Shown here one piece after another: positions 13,152 through 22,259 of a DNA stretch of 33,102 bases (its first letter is position 1; the number at the start of each line of letters is the position of its first letter). The position numbers were made by a program, and so were the translations under genes. Where the stretch lies: the IMG/VR virus record IMGVR_UViG_3300031612_000035, positions 1 to 33,102 of that record. One strand, written 5' to 3'. The notes beneath the pieces were generated by a model. That model was not told where the DNA came from. It worked only from the letters and a program-made list of their open reading frames with translations, and did not search any database. The stretch is from a virus.

Positions 13152-13460
13152 ATGGCAAACACGTTCAAGAACTACACATCATCTTCCGTAGGAACGGGTG
13201 CAACAACGACTTACACAGTACCCGGTTCCACTACTTCGGTAATGATTGGTTGTAACTTAGCAAATAAAACTTCTTCTCAAATTAGGGTAGATGTTCAAAC
13301 AGCTGGCGTTTATCTTGTTAAGAACGTAGCAATCCCAACAGGTTCAGCTTTGTCCGTCCTAGATGGTAAGGTTATTTTGGAAGCAGCTGACACAGTTATT
13401 GTTACTTCGGATACTGCCTCTTCATGCGATGTTATTGTAAGCGTACTGGAGCAGACCTAA
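13152..13460 (+). CDS. Small beta-sandwich virion protein
   Basis: This 102-aa protein is predicted to be all beta strand (NYTSSSVGTGATTTYTVPGSTTSVMIGCNLANKTSS, then repeated V-x-V strands to VIVSVLEQT). It is a type I recall from tail and fibre regions of marine phages, without known function. The next gene starts inside its stop codon (TAATG at 13458-13462), so both are coupled. A fibre-associated or decoration role is likely from context. Confidence 0.7.
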   Translation: MANTFKNYTSSSVGTGATTTYTVPGSTTSVMIGCNLANKTSSQIRVDVQTAGVYLVKNVAIPTGSALSVLDGKVILEAADTVIVTSDTASSCDVIVSVLEQT

Positions 13461-14914
13461 TGAGTAAACAATCAGACTTAGTTGTCATTTCTCAAATTGG
13501 TGTACCTTCACCTTTTAACCCACAAACAACTGCCATAGGTCCGGGCGATGCGGTTACTACAACTTACGCTGTAACCGTTGCATCTTCTGGTGGGGCTAAT
13601 AGGTATTTTATTGACGGGGTAGCATACCCTAAATTAACATTATCTCGAACATACATCTACATCTTTGATCTGTCTAATAGCTCAAACACTGGACACCCAC
13701 TACGTTTTAAAGACGCTGCAGGTAGCTCGTACTCCACAGGGGTTGTGGTTACTGGAACTCCGGGGCAGGCAGGTGCTAAAGTTACACTCACTGTTGCAGC
13801 TAATGCTCCAGTGGCTTTGAGCTATTACTGTACCGTTCATGGGAATGCTATGGGTAATACGATAGCAGTGACTAATTCCGCATCTTTAAATGTAGGCGCA
13901 AATAACTACTTCGATAGTGAGAGCTTAACTGCTAATACTTCGGTTAATTTTACAAGTGTCCCAACAACAGCTAATTGGAGATACAGCTGTGTGACACCTA
14001 ACTTAGATGCTGGGAACGTGACTGCTTCTGTTTACACGAATGGGATTAGCGTTACAGCTAAGGCAACCGCCCCCGAAGAAGTGTTCTTCAAACCAGATGG
14101 CACTAAGATGTACATTGCGGATGATGCGGATGATAAGGTTTTTGAGTATAACCTAATTATAGCTTGGGACGTTACTAGTGCTGTTTTTAGCACCGCCTCG
14201 CCAAACTTTTCCGCTCAAGAGACTAGCGTAAGAGGTTTATTCTTCAAACCAGATGGACTAACGATGTACATCTCAGGTAACTACCTCTCAGGGAGAGTTC
14301 ACCAGTACACCTTAAGCACAGCTTGGGATGTCGCTTCAGCTACTTACACATCACGCTTTACGACAGGGAGTGAAGAAACACGGCCAGAGGGCCTGTTCTT
14401 CAAGCCTGATGGAACTAAGATGTATCTTATGGGGTCTGTCAGTGACAACGTATTAGAGTACAACTTAGGCACAGCTTGGAATGTTACCACAGCGGTCTAC
14501 TCGCAGGCGTTCTCTATATCTGCTCAAGAAGGTGGCCCACACAACGTATCCCTTAACACCACGGGTACTAAGATGTACGTGTTGGGCGACTCTGGTAAAG
14601 CTGTCTTTGAGTACACCCTAAGTACAGCTTGGAATGTTACTACAGCCACTTACGTACATAGCTTCTCTGTGGGTGGTCAAGAAAATTCCCCTTCAGGGAT
14701 GTTCATTAGGGCTGATGGTTGTAGGATGTTCGTTATAGGTAGTGCCAACGACACTGTATTTCAGTACGAAATAGGCGCTGCCACAACCGTAACTATGCCA
14801 GCAGAAGTTTCTGGCACACCTAGCTCTACATCACATAACGATAAAGTGACATACACTTTTGTAACAACAGACAGTGGATCAACAGTAGACTTAATAGCAG
14901 AGGAGATAATCTAA
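13460..14914 (+). CDS. Tail protein with cupredoxin-like domain and beta-propeller-like repeats
   Basis: This 484-aa protein is taken from the ATG at 13460. Residues about 33-137 form a cupredoxin-like domain with all four type-1 copper ligand positions: H79 in NTGHPLRF, then C124, H127 and M131 in YYCTVHGNAMGN. Residues about 205-437 hold five tandem repeats of roughly 50 aa (FFKPDGTKMYI..., VFEYNL.TAWDVT.A.Y), the last one shorter, as in YVTN/SMP-30-type beta-propellers. The C-terminal 40 residues are a separate strand-rich tail. In a fibre cluster, the propeller may bind host surface sugar or protein. Copper binding is suggested by residues only. The domain recurs in the 20442-22259 protein. 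Confidence 0.8.
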   Translation: MSKQSDLVVISQIGVPSPFNPQTTAIGPGDAVTTTYAVTVASSGGANRYFIDGVAYPKLTLSRTYIYIFDLSNSSNTGHPLRFKDAAGSSYSTGVVVTGTPGQAGAKVTLTVAANAPVALSYYCTVHGNAMGNTIAVTNSASLNVGANNYFDSESLTANTSVNFTSVPTTANWRYSCVTPNLDAGNVTASVYTNGISVTAKATAPEEVFFKPDGTKMYIADDADDKVFEYNLIIAWDVTSAVFSTASPNFSAQETSVRGLFFKPDGLTMYISGNYLSGRVHQYTLSTAWDVASATYTSRFTTGSEETRPEGLFFKPDGTKMYLMGSVSDNVLEYNLGTAWNVTTAVYSQAFSISAQEGGPHNVSLNTTGTKMYVLGDSGKAVFEYTLSTAWNVTTATYVHSFSVGGQENSPSGMFIRADGCRMFVIGSANDTVFQYEIGAATTVTMPAEVSGTPSSTSHNDKVTYTFVTTDSGSTVDLIAEEII

Positions 14915-16278
14915 TGGCTGGGTACACTGGACCAGTAAACGCTGGAATAACTGCTCAAGCTCAAAGCAAAGAAGTTTTCGCCGTAACTACAAGCACCACT
15001 GCATTTAGCTTTGCGCATGACCTTCTGTCACTCCAAGTGTTCCACAACGGCATCCGCCTAGTTCAAAATACTGACTACTCAGCAAATGGCGTTGTAGTCA
15101 CCCTTACTAATGCAGCAATAAACGGGGACCAAGTAGTATTAATAAGCAACCCTAGTTTTCAAGTGGCAGACGCTTACACTCGGACAGAGGCAGATGCTGC
15201 GTTTCTAAAACCCGCAAGCAGTCTTAACGCAGCCAAGCTGACAGGGGCTTTACCTGCAATCTCTGGTGCAAATCTTACAGGATTAGTTGCTACTTTTTCT
15301 GGGTTATCAGACACAACTGTCTCAACGTCTGACCCTGCTCTCAACACTAACCCCTCGTCTGGCGTGGGTCACATCTGGGCTAATAAGACTTCTGGTGAAA
15401 TGTATATCCTTAAAACCGCGACCGCTAATTCTAATGTCTGGGTTAACGTAGGTGATGGTAGTGGGGCTATTGAGCCTTTTGAAACCACAGGCGGAACTAA
15501 AACAACTTCTGGTTCTTATACTTATCATACTTTTACGTCTTCTGGAACCTTTGCAGTTGTCGGGCAAAATAGGTCAGCCGATTATCTTATTGTTGCTGGT
15601 GGCGGTGGCGGTGGCGGTAATGGCGGGGGCTATGGCTATTACGGAGGCGGCGGCGGCGCTGGTGGTCTTATACAAGCGTCTACAACAATAAGCACAGGGT
15701 CTTATGCTATAACCGTTGGGGCAGGTGGAGTAACACGAGGGGGTTATAATGGCGGGGGCGGCCTTGGAGTAAACTCTTCTTTTGCAAGTCTTACTGCTGC
15801 CGTAGGCGGCGGAGGGGGAGGATGTTCCTTAAATTCCCAAGCATACGATTTTGATGGTACTAGCGGCGGTTCTGGAGGCGGCGGCGGCGCTGGTGGCGAA
15901 GGAGCCAACGGAACATCAGGTCAAGGTAAAGCGGGTGGTGACAACCCAAATGGAGCTGCTGGCGGTGGTGGTGGCGGCGGTGCTGGAGCAGCTGCCTCAA
16001 ACGGTGGAACTTACGGTGGTGAGGCTGGTAATGGTTTGGACTACTCCGCATGGGCAACCGCAACGTCAACAGGAGACTCAGGGTACTACGCTGGTGGAGG
16101 CGCAGGCGGTCCCGGTGCATCACCCGGAGGCGATGGCGGCGGCGCAAGCTCAATTGCTAGTGGCATTGCTGCTAACGCACAGGTAAATACTGGCGGCGGC
16201 GGCGCAGGCAACAACACCAATGTCAGTGCTGGTTCTAATGGCGCCTCTGGTATCCTAATCATTCGCTATCTAACTTAA
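14914..16278 (+). CDS. Tail adhesin 1 with glycine-rich tip
   Basis: This 454-aa protein has an N-terminal module (about 1-85: AGYTGPVNAGITAQAQSKEVF, FHNGIRLVQNTDYS, a DQVVLISNPSFQV segment). A linker with YTRTEADAAFLKP and LTGALPAISGANLTGL follows, then a segment about 128-183 shared with the next two adhesins (FSGLSDTTVSTSDP...VGHIWANKTSGEMYI). The tip (about 222-454) is very Gly-rich and ends in ILIIRYLT, the glycine-rich domain known from phage receptor-binding adhesins, which can form packed polyglycine II helices. Gly-flanked loops would contact the receptor. The ATG overlaps the upstream stop (TAATG). Confidence 0.82.
   Translation: MAGYTGPVNAGITAQAQSKEVFAVTTSTTAFSFAHDLLSLQVFHNGIRLVQNTDYSANGVVVTLTNAAINGDQVVLISNPSFQVADAYTRTEADAAFLKPASSLNAAKLTGALPAISGANLTGLVATFSGLSDTTVSTSDPALNTNPSSGVGHIWANKTSGEMYILKTATANSNVWVNVGDGSGAIEPFETTGGTKTTSGSYTYHTFTSSGTFAVVGQNRSADYLIVAGGGGGGGNGGGYGYYGGGGGAGGLIQASTTISTGSYAITVGAGGVTRGGYNGGGGLGVNSSFASLTAAVGGGGGGCSLNSQAYDFDGTSGGSGGGGGAGGEGANGTSGQGKAGGDNPNGAAGGGGGGGAGAAASNGGTYGGEAGNGLDYSAWATATSTGDSGYYAGGGAGGPGASPGGDGGGASSIASGIAANAQVNTGGGGAGNNTNVSAGSNGASGILIIRYLT
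15352..15396 (+). repeat. 45-nt direct repeat, copy 1 (shared adhesin segment)
   Basis: This 45-nt stretch encodes the SSGVGHIWANKTSG part of adhesin 1 and is identical to 16735-16779 in adhesin 2. A second identical 29-nt block lies just upstream (15308-15336 and 16691-16719). The third adhesin has the same protein segment (starting near 18060) but a diverged DNA sequence. This is a likely site for homologous exchange of the variable tips. Confidence 0.9.
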
Positions 16279-16292
16279 TAGGAGAATAAAGC

Positions 16293-16643
16293 ATGGCGCA
16301 TTACGCAAAAGTAAATAACGGCTTGGTAGAGCAAGTAATTGTGGCGGAGGCTGATTTCTTTGATACATTCGTGGACAGCAGCGCAGGTCAATGGATACAA
16401 ACATCCTACAACACCTACGGCGGTGTTCATGCAAACGGAGAAACACCTCTTCGCAAGAATTATGCTGGCATTGGCTCAACATACGATGCTGAACGGGATG
16501 CTTTCTATGCACCACAGCCATACCCAAGCTGGACGTTGAATAACGGTAGCTGCATCTGGGAAGCCCCAACTGCGTACCCCGATGACGGTAAGGTTTACAC
16601 TTGGAACGAGGGTACTACATCATGGGACGTAGTAGATGACTAA
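16293..16643 (+). CDS. Conserved marine-phage tail-region protein
   Basis: This 116-aa protein (MAHYAKVNNGLVEQVIVAE..., QWIQTSYNTYGGVHANG, LRKNYAGIGSTYD, DAFYAPQPYPSWTLN, a DDGKVYTWNEGTTSWDVVD end) is a type I recognise as frequent in cyanophage and pelagiphage genomes, always near fibre genes. The Trp/Tyr-rich, beta-strand pattern suggests a small structural or chaperone-like fibre component. Function is unproven. The ribosome binding site is GGAG/AATAAAGC before the ATG, and it overlaps the next adhesin by 8 bp. Confidence 0.78.
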   Translation: MAHYAKVNNGLVEQVIVAEADFFDTFVDSSAGQWIQTSYNTYGGVHANGETPLRKNYAGIGSTYDAERDAFYAPQPYPSWTLNNGSCIWEAPTAYPDDGKVYTWNEGTTSWDVVDD

Positions 16644-17673
16644 GGCAAGAGACAACGCCAATGGAGGCGCAAGTGAGTTCTCTGAACTGACAGACACAAC
16701 TGTCTCAACGTCTGACCCTCTAGGAAACAGCAATCCCTCGTCTGGCGTGGGTCACATCTGGGCTAATAAGACTTCTGGTAACGTGTATGTTTTAACGAAT
16801 GCCACGGCAGGTTCTAATGTTTGGACTAACGTAGGCGATGGGTCTGGCACCAAGCCCGGTCAAATGGAAGCCACTGGAGGTGCAGTTACTACTGTTGGAG
16901 ACTTTAAAGTACATACGTTTAACTCCTCTGGGACTTTTACTGTACTTAATGTAGGGGCTATCGGGACTGTTGAGGTTTTGTTAATTGCAGGCGGCGGCGG
17001 GACGGGCGCCACATCCTCGGGGGACGGCGGGGCAGGCGGCGGCGGTGCAGGCGGTTTATTGTATTATGGCGCAGAAACTCCCAAAACCCCTAATGGAGCT
17101 AGTGTTTCTGTAAGTGAAACGTCTTATAGCATTGTTATTGGCGCTGGCGGCGGTTCTAGCTCGGCCTTGGGCGCACCCGGAGCAAATTCAACAGGCTTTA
17201 GTTTAACATCTAGTGGCGGTGGACGAGGCGGGTCATATCCGGGGACATATGACAATGCCTACAGTTCTCTTTCGGGCGGCTCTGGCGGCGGTGTTTACAC
17301 TGGAACAACAGGCTCTGTTTCTGGGCAAGGTAATGACGGCGGCGCTAGCGGTGGATCGGCTAATTTTCAAGGTGGTGGTGGCGGTGGCGCAGGAGCTGTT
17401 GGGCAAGTTGGCGGTTCGGGTTCAAATGGTGGCGCTGGTGGCGCTGGTCTAGCCTACGTTATCTCAGGTAGTTCTGTAACTAGAGCTGGTGGTGGCGGTG
17501 GATACGGCAGAAACAATTCTGCTGGTGCTGGTGGCGCTGGTGGTGGCGGTGGTGCCGTTAATTATGGTACTGGTGCTGCAGGTGGTGCAAACACGGGCGG
17601 TGGCGCTGGTGCTGGTAATTCAACAGGTGGATCAGGTGTTTGTATTATTAGATACCGATTCCAAGCAGCATAG
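16636..17673 (+). CDS. Tail adhesin 2 with glycine-rich tip
   Basis: This 345-aa protein lacks the N-terminal module of adhesins 1 and 3 and begins almost directly with the shared segment (about 14-70: FSELTDTTVSTSDP, GHIWANKTSGNVYVL). A GGAVTTVGDFKVHTF linker leads to a Gly-rich tip (about 117-330) ending in GVCIIRYRF. It overlaps the upstream gene by 8 bp. The missing N-terminal domain means it either attaches differently or arose by partial duplication; the 45- and 29-nt identical stretches shared with adhesin 1 support recent exchange or duplication. Confidence 0.8.
   Translation: MTKARDNANGGASEFSELTDTTVSTSDPLGNSNPSSGVGHIWANKTSGNVYVLTNATAGSNVWTNVGDGSGTKPGQMEATGGAVTTVGDFKVHTFNSSGTFTVLNVGAIGTVEVLLIAGGGGTGATSSGDGGAGGGGAGGLLYYGAETPKTPNGASVSVSETSYSIVIGAGGGSSSALGAPGANSTGFSLTSSGGGRGGSYPGTYDNAYSSLSGGSGGGVYTGTTGSVSGQGNDGGASGGSANFQGGGGGGAGAVGQVGGSGSNGGAGGAGLAYVISGSSVTRAGGGGGYGRNNSAGAGGAGGGGGAVNYGTGAAGGANTGGGAGAGNSTGGSGVCIIRYRFQAA
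16735..16779 (+). repeat. 45-nt direct repeat, copy 2 (shared adhesin segment)
   Basis: Identical to 15352-15396, in the same reading frame of a different adhesin gene. Neighbouring bases differ except for the 29-nt upstream block, so the identity is local and not simply a recent duplication of the whole gene. Confidence 0.9.
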
Positions 17674-17682
17674 GAGGACATC

Positions 17683-19005
17683 ATGTCCGGATACATAGGC
17701 ACAGTACCAGTACCACAGGCCACCCAAACCCGGGAGGCTTTTACAGCAACGGCGAACCAAACTTCTTTTGCTACAATAGGCTACGAACCGGGTTTTCTTG
17801 ACGTTTTCTTAAATGGCGTCAAGCTAGCCGCCGCAGACTACACGGCAACGAACGCGACGAATGTTGTGCTGGCTACGGGCGCAGCAGTTAATGATATCTT
17901 AGAAATTGTTGCATATAAGACTTTTAATGTAACTAATACGCTAGCACCTAACGGAAGCGCCGCCAATCTGACTAACCTACCAGCAGCACAGCTGACAGGG
18001 GCTTTGCCTGCTATTAGTGGTGCAGCTTTAACTGGTTTAGTTGCTACTTTTTCGGGGTTATCAGACACAACGGTAGCAACATCAAATCCAGCTGCCAACA
18101 CTAACCCTACATCTGGGTTGGGTCACATCTGGGTTAATAAGACCTCTGGTCAAATGTATGTTTGTACTAATGCTACCGCTGGTTCTAACGTGTGGAGCAA
18201 CATAGGTGTAGTTGCAGCGGGTCTTGTTGCAGCCACAGGTGGAACAGTGACCACAGATGGTGATTACAAAGTACACACATTTACCTCAAACGGCACGTTT
18301 AACATTACAGCAGCGGGTTCAGTTGATTACTTGTTCGTTGGTGGAGGAGGTGGCGGGGGCGCAGCAACTGGGACTTATGATGGTTGTGGTGGGGGTGGCG
18401 CAGGTGGGTTTAGACCTTCTCAGTTCACTGTAGCTTCTCCAGTTGCCTGTACAGTCACAATTGGCGCAGGAGGTGGCTCGGCTAATAATGGCGAGGCAAC
18501 TGGCTTACAAACCCCTACTGGTCTTTTGATTACAACCTTAGGGGGCGGCGCTGGGTCTAAACAAGGTGCTCAAGGTGGTTTTGGTGGTTCTGGCGGAGGC
18601 ACTGGTGGCAATAATGGCCAAGGTGGTACCGCAGAAGTATTTATGGGGAATAAGGGTGGAGGACAAACTAGTAACGGTTCTTCGGGAGGAGGCGGCGCTG
18701 GTGCAGTGGGCCAAGACCAACCCTTAGCAGATACAGGTGGTGCGGGTGGCAACGGTTTAGCTAATTCCATAACAGGAGCATCTGTTACCTACGCTGGTGG
18801 CGGCGGTGGCGGTGGTTATCACGACAGGCGGGCAAACGGTCGTGGACTAGGTGGGTCTGGCGGCGGTGGCGCAGGTGGCAACCTTGGCGCAGTACAGGGT
18901 GTTAATGCGACTGGAATTGGGTCTGGCGGTGGCGGTGCTTTTGGCAATAATAGCGGTGGCACTGGGTCAGCTGGTATTGCAATATTCCGCTACAAATTTC
19001 AATAA
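17683..19005 (+). CDS. Tail adhesin 3 with glycine-rich tip
   Basis: This 440-aa protein has an N-terminal module very common in marine phage fibres (SGYIGTVPVPQATQTREAF, then LDVFLNGVKLAAADYTA, about 1-85). It then has LPAAQLTGALPAISGAALTGL and the shared segment (about 127-185: FSGLSDTTVATSNP, GHIWVNKTSGQMYV). The Gly-rich tip (about 223-430) contains loops such as PSQFTVASPVACTV and TLGGGAGSKQGAQ and ends in GIAIFRYKF. GGAGG lies six bases upstream of the ATG. Same architecture as adhesin 1 but a different tip, so the phage carries three alternative or combined receptor-binding tips. Confidence 0.82.
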   Translation: MSGYIGTVPVPQATQTREAFTATANQTSFATIGYEPGFLDVFLNGVKLAAADYTATNATNVVLATGAAVNDILEIVAYKTFNVTNTLAPNGSAANLTNLPAAQLTGALPAISGAALTGLVATFSGLSDTTVATSNPAANTNPTSGLGHIWVNKTSGQMYVCTNATAGSNVWSNIGVVAAGLVAATGGTVTTDGDYKVHTFTSNGTFNITAAGSVDYLFVGGGGGGGAATGTYDGCGGGGAGGFRPSQFTVASPVACTVTIGAGGGSANNGEATGLQTPTGLLITTLGGGAGSKQGAQGGFGGSGGGTGGNNGQGGTAEVFMGNKGGGQTSNGSSGGGGAGAVGQDQPLADTGGAGGNGLANSITGASVTYAGGGGGGGYHDRRANGRGLGGSGGGGAGGNLGAVQGVNATGIGSGGGGAFGNNSGGTGSAGIAIFRYKFQ

Positions 19006-19016
19006 GGGAATAAAAC

Positions 19017-19247
19017 ATGGCGAATAAAGATGAAACCTCATACGCAAGCTATCTGGCTGCACTACCCGCTTTTAATGCTGATAAAGCCCGAAGTGAGCGT
19101 AACTCCCTTTTAGCAAAAACAGATTGGACTTCTGCAAGTGACCTCACAATGTCATCTGATATGACAGCATACCGTCAGGCTCTTAGGGATGTTCCACAGC
19201 AGGCTGGATTTCCTAACACTATTACTTGGCCTGCAACACCGGAGTAG
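19017..19247 (+). CDS. Tail assembly chaperone-like protein (Phage_tail_APC-like)
   Basis: This 76-aa protein matches the short C-terminal module seen in many phages: ARSERNSLLAKTDWT (about 24-38), then MTAYRQALRDVPQQAGFPNTITWPATPE (49-76). In other phages it is fused to or placed next to a tail fibre and is described as a tail assembly chaperone. Here it follows the three adhesins, as expected for a fibre-assembly helper. The start has AAGGGAATAAAAC before the ATG. Confidence 0.75.
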   Translation: MANKDETSYASYLAALPAFNADKARSERNSLLAKTDWTSASDLTMSSDMTAYRQALRDVPQQAGFPNTITWPATPE

Positions 19248-19250
19248 ATC

Positions 19251-19718
19251 ATGCCTCAATCCTACTACGTTGACCCAGACTATTGGATATCTGGATATGC
19301 TCAAGGTGACATATTTGACGATAGCGCATTAATTACAGCGCAACTATCTGTAACCGCAGGGGCTGTGCTTCTTTCGAGTGCATCTAGTTCTATAACCTCT
19401 GCGCTAACTGTTAGTGCGTTAGCTTCAAGTGTTAAGAATATTGCTGCTTCTATTATTGCAACCTTTAATATTTCAGCAGTTGTTCCAGCCATTAAAGAAA
19501 CTTCTGCTCAGATTTTATCAGCGCTATCAGTTTCTGCTCTTTTGATACGACTGCAACATACTAGTGCATCTTTTGCATTTTCTGCTATAGTGACTGCAAA
19601 TGCAAGATTTTTGTGGGAACCAGAACCCATCGCAACAGATATTTGGACTGAACAGGGCGATGCAAGCTCAACGTGGACTAACGATGGTAAAGCGACAACG
19701 ATATGGACGGATGAATAA
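19251..19718 (+). CDS. Repetitive fibre-like protein
   Basis: This 155-aa protein starts with PQSYYVDPDYWISGYAQGD. It then has four loose hydrophobic repeats of about 25-30 aa, each with a small-residue stretch and L-x-V-S-A (about 24-120), and ends in two short WT repeats (DIWTEQGDASSTWTNDGKATTIWTDE region split across 130-155). The C-terminal repeat is a type common in marine phage tail genes. The repeats suggest a shaft or coiled-rod element. TAA overlaps the next ATG region directly (no gap). Confidence 0.68.
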   Translation: MPQSYYVDPDYWISGYAQGDIFDDSALITAQLSVTAGAVLLSSASSSITSALTVSALASSVKNIAASIIATFNISAVVPAIKETSAQILSALSVSALLIRLQHTSASFAFSAIVTANARFLWEPEPIATDIWTEQGDASSTWTNDGKATTIWTDE

Positions 19719-20432
19719 ATGGCAAATACAACAAATCAAGGCTGGGCTAAACCTACAGTTGGCGGCTCGGAAGACACATGGGGAACAACTTGGAATACTG
19801 CATTAGATGCAATTGATACTTTAGTTGGACCAGTTACGGCGGCAGAAATTGCTAAATTAGATGGTCTTACATCGTCTACGGTAGAGTTAAACAAACTTAC
19901 TGGCGCTACTTCGTCAACGGCAGAATTGAATTTTGTAACAGGTGTTACCAGCAACATTCAAACTCAATTAAATACAATACAAGTCATTCCAGCTGGCGTT
20001 ATTATGTTATGGTCTGGCGCTGCAAACGCCATTCCTACTGGATATGTGATTTGTGACGGAAGCAATAGTACGCCTAATCTTCGCAATAATTTTGTAATTG
20101 GTGCAGGGGATACTTACGCAGTTGGCGCATCTGGTGGTTCTGCTGATGCTATTATACCCGCTCACACCCACGCACTTACTGGTGCGACTACAGATACGCA
20201 TAACCTCTCAGGCTCTCTTATGGCTTCAAAGCCTCCAGCAGCCACAGGTGCGTTCTCTGTTGTAGGTGGGCAAGGTGGGGGTGCAGATGGTGGGCAATCT
20301 ACCGCTAGCCTATACACCCTGTCTGACTCACATAATCACGCACTTAGCGGTTCAACTGATAGCACGGGCGCTAGTGCCACTGACGCTAATTTGCCGCCAT
20401 ACTATGCTCTTTGCTATATTATGAAAACGTAA
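19719..20432 (+). CDS. Tail collar / short tail fibre-like protein
   Basis: This 237-aa protein begins with TTNQGWAKPTVGGSEDTWGTTWNTALDAID (about 4-33), a common marine fibre start. Short repeats follow (EIAKLDGLTSST, ELNKLTGATSST, ELNFVTGVTSN, about 43-80), and then a collar domain: IPAGVIMLWSGA, IPTGYVICDGS, PNLRNNFVIGAG (90-130). Metal-site-like H149/H151 and H205/H207 (HTH and HNH) lie in the C-terminal part, ending with LPPYYALCYIMK. T4 short tail fibres use similar HxH pairs to bind metal. It is probably a trimeric fibre or collar component. No overlap with neighbouring genes. Confidence 0.85.
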   Translation: MANTTNQGWAKPTVGGSEDTWGTTWNTALDAIDTLVGPVTAAEIAKLDGLTSSTVELNKLTGATSSTAELNFVTGVTSNIQTQLNTIQVIPAGVIMLWSGAANAIPTGYVICDGSNSTPNLRNNFVIGAGDTYAVGASGGSADAIIPAHTHALTGATTDTHNLSGSLMASKPPAATGAFSVVGGQGGGADGGQSTASLYTLSDSHNHALSGSTDSTGASATDANLPPYYALCYIMKT

Positions 20433-20441
20433 GGAGCCAAA

Positions 20442-22259
20442 ATGGCACTAGTTCCACTTAAAATTCCAGCAGGCTTTTACCGAAACGGCACAGATTACGA
20501 TGCTTCTGGTAGATGGCGCGATGGAAGCCTTGTCCGTTGGCGTGACGGTTCCTTGCGTCCGATTGGTGGCTGGCAAGAACGTAAAGTTAATTTTAGCACA
20601 AATCCAATTAGGGGTATGCATTCATGGGAAGCTAATAATGGAACTGCTTGGCTTGCTGGAGGATCGCACACAGAACTGAACGTAATGACAGGATCAAACA
20701 CTGTCACAGACGTTGCGCCCTCTAATTTAGCTACTGGAAGGGCAGATGCAGAAATTGTAACTGGTTATGGTTACGGTTTTTATGGGACAAGTTATTATGG
20801 TCAACCAAGACCCGATTATGGAAACTATTCTGAAGCTACTACTTGGAGCATAGATAATTGGGGCGAATACCTTGTTGCTTGCAATACGGATGATGGACGC
20901 ATTCTTGAGTGGCGGTTAAATGCTGCTGTAGACGCTGCTGCCATATTAAATGCACCTTTGGGCAACTCAAGTTTAGTTGTAACTGAAGAACGATTTATAT
21001 TTGCACTTGGAAGCGGTGGAAACCCTAGAAAAATTGCGTGGTGTGATAGGGAAAATAACACTATTTGGACTGCTGCTGCTAATAATGAAGCTGGCGATAT
21101 TGAATTGCAAACCTCTGGTCAAATTATGTTGGCAATAAGAACAAAAGGCCAAACTTTGATTATGACTGACGTAGACGCCCACACAGCGCGTTATCAAGGA
21201 CCCCCATATGTTTACGGATTTGAGCGCGTTGGTACTTCGTGTGGGGCTATTTCGAGAACATGCGCGGCTGATGTGGACGCTGGCGTATTCTGGATGGGTC
21301 AGCGTGGGTTTTATATGTTTAATGGTAACTCTGTTCAAGAAGTTCCATGCGAGGTACATGATTATGTCTTTGGGGATATGAACCCAGCGCAACAAAGTAA
21401 GATTTGGGCTTTAAACAATGGGCAGTTTGGTGAGATTTGGTGGTTTTATCCATCTGCTAATAGCGTGGAAATAGACAGATACGTTGCCTTTGATTACAAA
21501 GAACAGCATTGGCTTATAGGTGATTTAAAAAGAACATCTGGGGTTCAGCGAGGCGTTTTTAAATATCCATTCATGGCAAGGTCTGGCGCGAAAGCTACAA
21601 CTACAACATTTGCAATTACAGTTGCTAACGTAGGCGGATCAAATTACTTTCATGTTGACGGTACAAGCCACCCAATTCTAAGCCTTTTAACAGGTAATAC
21701 TTATATTTTTGATGTAAGTGATAGTACCAATAATGGGCATCCTTTAAGATTTAAAAACTCTGACGATAGTAGTTATTCTACTGGCGTTGTAGTCGTTGGA
21801 ACTCAGGGCCAAGCTGGTGCAACTGTAACACTTACTGTGGCTTCCAACGCGCCAACCGCTCTAAAATATTACTGCACGGTGCATGGGAACAACATGGGCA
21901 ACAATATTGCCGTTGCTTCTGATGACGTTGATTTAATAGAGCATGAAGTTGGTTTAAACGTAGATAGTGCAAGCATATTTGCAGAAACTGGCCCGATAAG
22001 TGCTGGTGTTGGCGATAAGGTTTTAAGTGTCACTAAAGTAATTCCCGACGAACTTACTCAAGGAGATGTAGATTTAACTTTTAAAACTCGTTTTTATCCA
22101 AACGATGTTGAGCGCTCATATGGTCCTTTTAATCCATCTAATCCAACTTCTGTAAGATTTAGCGGAAGGCAATTCAGAATGAGAATTGAAGGGGATAAAT
22201 TGGCTGCTTGGAGAGTTGGAACTATGAGGGTCGAAGTGAAACCGATGGGTACGCGCTAA
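20442..22259 (+). CDS. Tail nozzle-like protein with inserted cupredoxin-like domain
   Basis: This 605-aa protein has the pattern of podovirus nozzle/tail-tube proteins: RWRDGSLVRWRDGSLRPIGGW at 24-44, strand-rich repeats to about 360 (EYLVACNTDDGRILEWRL, RFIFALGSGGNPRKIAW), and a C-terminal LTFKTRFYPNDVE segment. Inserted at about 385-492 is a cupredoxin-like domain with H433, C478, H481 and M485, spaced as in the 13460 protein (45 residues from the first His to the Cys). The nozzle closes the DNA channel and carries fibres. The insert is likely surface exposed. It shares one base with the next start (TAATG). Confidence 0.8.
   Translation: MALVPLKIPAGFYRNGTDYDASGRWRDGSLVRWRDGSLRPIGGWQERKVNFSTNPIRGMHSWEANNGTAWLAGGSHTELNVMTGSNTVTDVAPSNLATGRADAEIVTGYGYGFYGTSYYGQPRPDYGNYSEATTWSIDNWGEYLVACNTDDGRILEWRLNAAVDAAAILNAPLGNSSLVVTEERFIFALGSGGNPRKIAWCDRENNTIWTAAANNEAGDIELQTSGQIMLAIRTKGQTLIMTDVDAHTARYQGPPYVYGFERVGTSCGAISRTCAADVDAGVFWMGQRGFYMFNGNSVQEVPCEVHDYVFGDMNPAQQSKIWALNNGQFGEIWWFYPSANSVEIDRYVAFDYKEQHWLIGDLKRTSGVQRGVFKYPFMARSGAKATTTTFAITVANVGGSNYFHVDGTSHPILSLLTGNTYIFDVSDSTNNGHPLRFKNSDDSSYSTGVVVVGTQGQAGATVTLTVASNAPTALKYYCTVHGNNMGNNIAVASDDVDLIEHEVGLNVDSASIFAETGPISAGVGDKVLSVTKVIPDELTQGDVDLTFKTRFYPNDVERSYGPFNPSNPTSVRFSGRQFRMRIEGDKLAAWRVGTMRVEVKPMGTR

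Follow-up and report, generated by a model that had tools for sequence, protein, structure and literature searches.

Why should a short-tailed phage carry, in two of its tail proteins, segments that resemble blue-copper proteins? The question is raised by the window, by which we mean the whole analysed stretch of 33,102 bases, an entire IMG/VR virus record. Its genes for terminase, portal, scaffold, major head protein, nozzle, an ejection-type protein and endolysin are those of a short-tailed phage. A previous reading made from the sequence only had pointed out one segment in the tail protein P0001 and another in the nozzle-like protein P0002, both with the motif H...C-x2-H-x3-M and with 45 residues between the first His and the Cys. 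Both segments, the motif, and the distance are found as described.

Two related domains in two tail proteins

P0001 (484 residues) is encoded by an open frame at 13460..14914, on the + strand like all features given below, and its start overlaps the stop of the upstream gene (TAATG). The protein consists of a short N-terminal part, cupredoxin-fold domain 1 (residues 33-138, 13556..13873; delimited by alignment and model), a linker, and a hypervariable beta-propeller-like C-terminal part (residues 191-450, 14030..14809; Pfam SGL, 7e-7). The putative metal ligands of domain 1 are His79 within GHPLRF (13694..13696), Cys124 (YYCTVHGNAMGN, 13829..13831), which is the domain's single Cys, and His127 (13838..13840), with Met131 (13850..13852) as putative axial ligand; all four are assigned by family conservation. 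P0002 (605 residues, 20442..22259) likewise has an open reading frame. Its nozzle-like identity is borne out by the match to phrog_3287 (5e-85) and by its full-length model, which in Foldseek matches the solved nozzles of Pa223, VP1, SU10, P22 (gp10), and T7. Alignment and the full-length model place domain 2 at residues 384-493 (21591..21920), and comparison with empty nozzle alleles places the insert at residues 379-491 (21576..21914), give or take a few residues at the boundaries. Here, the putative metal ligands are His433 (21738..21740), Cys478 (21873..21875), and His481 (21882..21884), and the putative axial ligand is Met485 (21894..21896), all four assigned by conservation among nozzle relatives.

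The two domains are 67% identical over about 105 residues without gaps (BLASTP, E 1e-50), and blastn finds no match between the two copies at the DNA level. The similarity has thus been conserved at the protein level and does not reflect a recent tandem copy. Each copy is 84-85% identical to copies in other phages and therefore closer to these than to its partner, which together with the blastn result led us to reject a DNA duplication within the window. A chance resemblance of the two segments is excluded by their identity and by the existence of a family.

Within P0001 the two parts evolve differently. In most relatives the propeller is only 32-48% identical to that of P0001, whereas the cupredoxin domain of the same proteins is 76-97% identical. 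Two relatives (L006 and L007) share the N-terminus and the cupredoxin domain at 93-100% identity and the propeller at only 43-46%, while a third (L008) has a propeller 92% identical next to a cupredoxin domain 84% identical. These contrasts indicate recombination near the linker. Judging from this pattern, the propeller is the diversifying part of P0001, a candidate receptor-binding region, and the likely adhesin. Downstream of P0001, three adjacent frames (14914-16278, 16636-17673, and 17683-19005) have a common glycine-rich C-terminal half and all match phrog_2295 (E 3e-37 to 4.5e-41); they appear to be tandem paralogous tail proteins resembling Gly-rich adhesins.

Predicted fold and conservation of the four residues

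Domain 1 was modelled with AlphaFold2 from an alignment of 39 relatives (mean pLDDT 97.7, pTM 0.90, nine strands), and domain 2 has pLDDT values of mostly 86-96 within the full-length model of P0002. The best fold matches of domain 1 in the PDB (Foldseek) are three-domain copper nitrite reductase, rusticyanin, CueO and other multicopper oxidases, and plastocyanin, and the small beta protein SO1698 is the sole non-cupredoxin near the top of the list. The TM-scores to the query are mostly 0.53-0.63 (best E 2e-4), and values of about 0.6 mean a moderate similarity. Both window domains are predicted to form a Greek-key beta-sandwich of cupredoxin topology; a cupredoxin fold was what the sequence-only reading had set as a check on its proposal. 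In BFVD, 69 viral models match the domain fold at E <= 1e-3, and cyanophage tail fibre and baseplate proteins are prominent among the named matches. The giant-virus proteins A0A481Z7Q7 and A0A481YXP1 (Pithovirus, Marseillevirus) are also found there.

For a comparison at the profile level, the viral family was aligned by hhalign to a cupredoxin profile of 48 diverse sequences taken from Pfam Copper-bind hits and plastocyanins. All four ligand columns are in register, with probabilities of 93-95% and E-values of 4e-8 to 4e-7, the lowest of which was obtained on columns in which at least half of the rows have a residue. In a shuffle control limited to columns of this kind (gappy columns gave spurious scores of about 133), the best of 200 column shuffles scored 16.9, compared with the real score of 43.7. 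When the ligand columns are masked the match drops to E 1e-3 and a probability of 20%, so the profile homology rests mostly on the ligands. Against four near-identical plastocyanins the probability is only 13%. The sequence evidence for homology is largely the site itself, and the evidence for the fold is the model. Searching PDB sequences gave chance-level matches only (Ig light chains, SUMO). Pfam PF00127 (Copper-bind) has no match in the window proteins at E-values up to 10 and matches 3 of the 39 relatives weakly (best E 0.087, below the curated cut-off); on sequence, the viral domain is not filed as a member of this family. PF25489 (At5g54830-like domain) weakly matches 5 of the 39 domains (best 4e-4) and 2 of 54 carrier proteins (best 9e-7), and the window's own domains give no match to it.

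How well are the four residues conserved? Retrieval by the motif is biased towards ligand conservation, and three other routes were used. On the first, via the nozzle backbone (one of the six search motifs falls inside the domain), H, C, H, and M are intact in all 22 distinct domain-bearing nozzles. On the second, through two ligand-free segments of the domain, all four ligands are kept in 140 of 143 distinct full-length domains. The earlier reading had named free variation of the ligand positions among homologues as evidence against a site, and these counts speak clearly against such variation. The exceptions are one domain cut by a contig end, one lacking all four residues (L436), and one lacking C, H, and M (L434). 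The third route, tblastn in annotated phages, of which 15 records were read, revealed that baseplate-type proteins of T4-like cyanophages contain four divergent second copies that have lost C, H, and M together, two of them also the first His. A partial loss of C-H-M is found in none of 225 distinct domains, and of the 76 clusters formed at 70% identity, 70 have the site intact and the other six are without the whole C-H-M set. Six copies have lost these residues and are still retained, which suggests that some proteins make use of the fold in a metal-free state. In four T4-like cyanophage baseplate-type proteins (L250, L251, L252, and L254), an intact and a metal-site-less copy are present within one protein.

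At the two His and the Cys positions, both possible codons occur in quantity (116/100, 129/87, and 122/94), meaning that synonymous change is saturated and that the DNA has drifted where the protein has not. Near-universal retention, absence of partial loss, and synonymous drift together argue that the His, Cys, His, Met site is under strong joint selection. Exactly one Cys is present in 218 of the 225 domains, so that there is no intradomain disulfide, and a disulfide site was therefore rejected. The order of the residues is that of blue-copper proteins, as had been claimed. The spacing is not plastocyanin's own C-x2-H-x4-M, since the second His and the Met are separated by three residues in 155 domains and by two in 63; nevertheless, x2 and x3 variants are also known among sequences that pass the Pfam Copper-bind cut-off, and among bacterial Copper-bind hits x2, x3, and x4 all occur.

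Spread among marine phage proteins

The history of the domain can be followed best in the nozzle, where 22 of 73 distinct proteins have it and 51 do not. In most carriers including the window, the domain takes the place of a short turn that joins ...GVFKYPFM to the strand ...DLIEHEVG and that, according to the model, belongs to a hairpin loop of the nozzle fold. In a second nozzle clade it sits after the DLIEHEVG strand, giving two insertion points in total. Four nozzles (L171, L023, L172, and L205) use this second, independent point, beyond the HEVG strand. On a nozzle tree built on the backbone with the insert taken out, presence and absence change through at least five to seven gains or losses, and five of the at least seven changes are forced by well-supported branches. 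The most direct cases are pairs of close relatives. L169 and L206 have flanks that are 96% and 99% identical and only one of them has the domain, and L165 and L197 form a similar pair. The closest empty relative of the window nozzle (L184) is 89% and 81% identical in the flanks, and the closest relative of the window nozzle domain (84%) belongs to a tail fibre protein that another phage encodes (L022/L377). The nozzle domain is an optional insert, present or absent in close relatives.

Beyond the nozzle, the carrier proteins fall into 55 clusters at 35% identity, of which 54 were aligned and scanned. These 54 carriers are otherwise unrelated (mean column identity 8%), and conserved columns were found only in this domain, including all four ligands. 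The carriers comprise tail fibre, baseplate wedge, neck, head closure, minor tail protein L, and adaptor proteins, and thus span more than one tail type. Of 236 carrier reading frames, 26 contain the domain twice, mostly as neighbouring copies.

In INPHARED, 329 of 50,697 phage records match by tblastn, and all except two unplaced records are named as Synechococcus, Prochlorococcus, Pelagibacter, Methylophilales, or marine phages; one of the two is the seawater phage 023Pt_psg01. Cultured carriers include the Pelagibacter phages Baldr and HTVC028P and the cyanophage S-TIM5. The restriction to marine phages rests on this tblastn search against 50,697 records, by which more distant relatives elsewhere may be missed. 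A cellular origin was considered and rejected, since the search of 84,980 genomes gave three hits and each of their contigs also carries phage tail genes; plasmids gave no match to the domain. A contig of a Neomarinimicrobiota genome bin (L239) encodes a divergent cupredoxin-like copy (SHPFQI...YYQCTVHSNM) with a weak match to Pfam PF25489. By these comparisons, the domain family is large, almost purely viral, and essentially all marine, and the domain is a mobile module that has been inserted into and lost from many unrelated tail proteins of marine phages. Of the suggested recombination-spread surface domain, the spread is directly supported for the nozzle with its empty and filled alleles. 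Of the other two roles suggested, a metal-stabilised fold is plausible, and host recognition linked to copper or oxygen is doubtful. A search of open-access papers found none describing such a domain in phage tails.

Proposed role and known systems compared

The joint conservation and loss of C, H, and M, the single Cys, and the predicted fold are best read as a type-1-like metal site. We consider it likely that this site binds a soft metal, most probably copper. Somewhat less firmly, but still as the probable explanation of the whole, we propose a metal-stapled cupredoxin decoration or spacer domain with a type-1-like His-Cys-His-Met site, which is used as a module on tail proteins of marine tailed phages. 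A role as decoration or spacer, the metal being a staple that replaces a disulfide, would be preferred over a receptor-specific or redox role based on the optional, recombining distribution and the conserved place beside a variable propeller. Free copper is scarce in the cytoplasm, in which virion proteins fold, and this counts against a copper site. Binding of a metal, its identity, the time of its loading, and the function as staple or spacer are what we infer, and the steps would be as follows. The domain would be made metal-free in the host cytoplasm and would be loaded after lysis. One soft metal ion, probably copper, would then tie the His-bearing loop to the Cys-His-Met loop at one pole of a disulfide-free beta sandwich, resulting in a rigid and stable extracellular domain. 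A hexameric nozzle would bear six inserted domains, and in P0001 the conserved N-proximal cupredoxin would present the fast-changing propeller.

One alternative is an adhesive Ig-like beta-sandwich without metal, in which packing or other chemistry maintains the four residues and an ancestral ability to bind copper has disappeared. Phage virions are well known to bear Ig-like decoration domains, the modular behaviour is the same, and the few copies lacking C, H, and M are still retained. However, all-or-none loss of C-H-M and near-invariance (218/225) are hard to explain by packing, and one Cys does not allow a disulfide, so that we regard a metal-free domain as unlikely. The full type-1 ligand set and the predicted cupredoxin fold would also suit a centre of the blue-copper type that is redox-active and hands on electrons while the phage enters, at the cell surface or in the periplasm. 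The carriers show no partner redox protein or domain, though, the copies are single or paired in structural proteins, and we know of no established redox step in phage entry; electron transfer therefore seems highly improbable.

The metal could instead serve recognition, if copper-loaded nozzle or fibre domains engaged copper-uptake or redox proteins on the host surface like a Trojan horse, or sensed the metal or redox state before ejection. The location on tail proteins and the restriction of the family to marine phages would fit, and there is a precedent with iron in the HxH sites of phage tail fibres (T4 gp37, alterophage R22Y), which have been proposed to exploit siderophore receptors in the 'Ferrojan Horse' hypothesis (PMC11705849). 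Such a role is nevertheless doubtful, given that P0001 combines a conserved cupredoxin with a variable propeller, the reverse of a usual receptor-binding tip, that most close nozzle relatives are without the domain, and that it is also found in baseplate wedge, neck, and head-closure proteins. About equally speculative is a further extension, by which the domains on nozzles and fibres would bind copper from seawater or lysate, the presence or redox state of the metal would control tail stability, attachment, or ejection, and the abundant cyanophages and pelagiphages would both depend on and sequester a part of the copper in the ocean.

Metal-stapled decoration, the reading that we prefer, combines traits of several known systems. 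With the cupredoxin superfamily (the plastocyanin/azurin family PF00127, rusticyanin, nitrite reductase, type-1 domains of multicopper oxidases) the viral domain shares the predicted fold, the order His...Cys-His-Met, and an aromatic residue before the Cys. The distance from His to Cys is 45 residues compared with 47 in poplar plastocyanin, and the first His is followed by Pro where cupredoxins usually have Asn; multicopper oxidases likewise have His-Pro at the first ligand of their type-1 site. Known cupredoxins are exported electron carriers or oxidases, whereas the viral domain is part of virion proteins. Ig-like and other phage decoration domains are beta sandwiches of about 100 residues that are optional, occur in unrelated head and tail proteins, sometimes in tandem, and spread by recombination. 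The viral domain resembles them in all these respects but differs in its cupredoxin fold and its conserved single-Cys metal-type site. What it has in common with the HxH fibre sites is the presence of metal-type ligands on marine phage tails. Fold, ligands, and probable metal are different, and its ligands are not an HxH motif but a single His, Cys-x2-His, and Met inside one domain instead of a fibre trimer.

To our knowledge, the sites of metal type described from phage tails mainly concern iron or structural ions. In phages that infect Synechococcus, Prochlorococcus, Pelagibacter, and marine methylotrophs, a blue-copper-type site in tail proteins that is widespread and maintained by selection would be unexpected. 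The putative site is easily testable because it resides in a single small soluble domain, and the carrier and empty nozzle alleles, which otherwise differ little, offer a natural experiment on the function of decoration domains.
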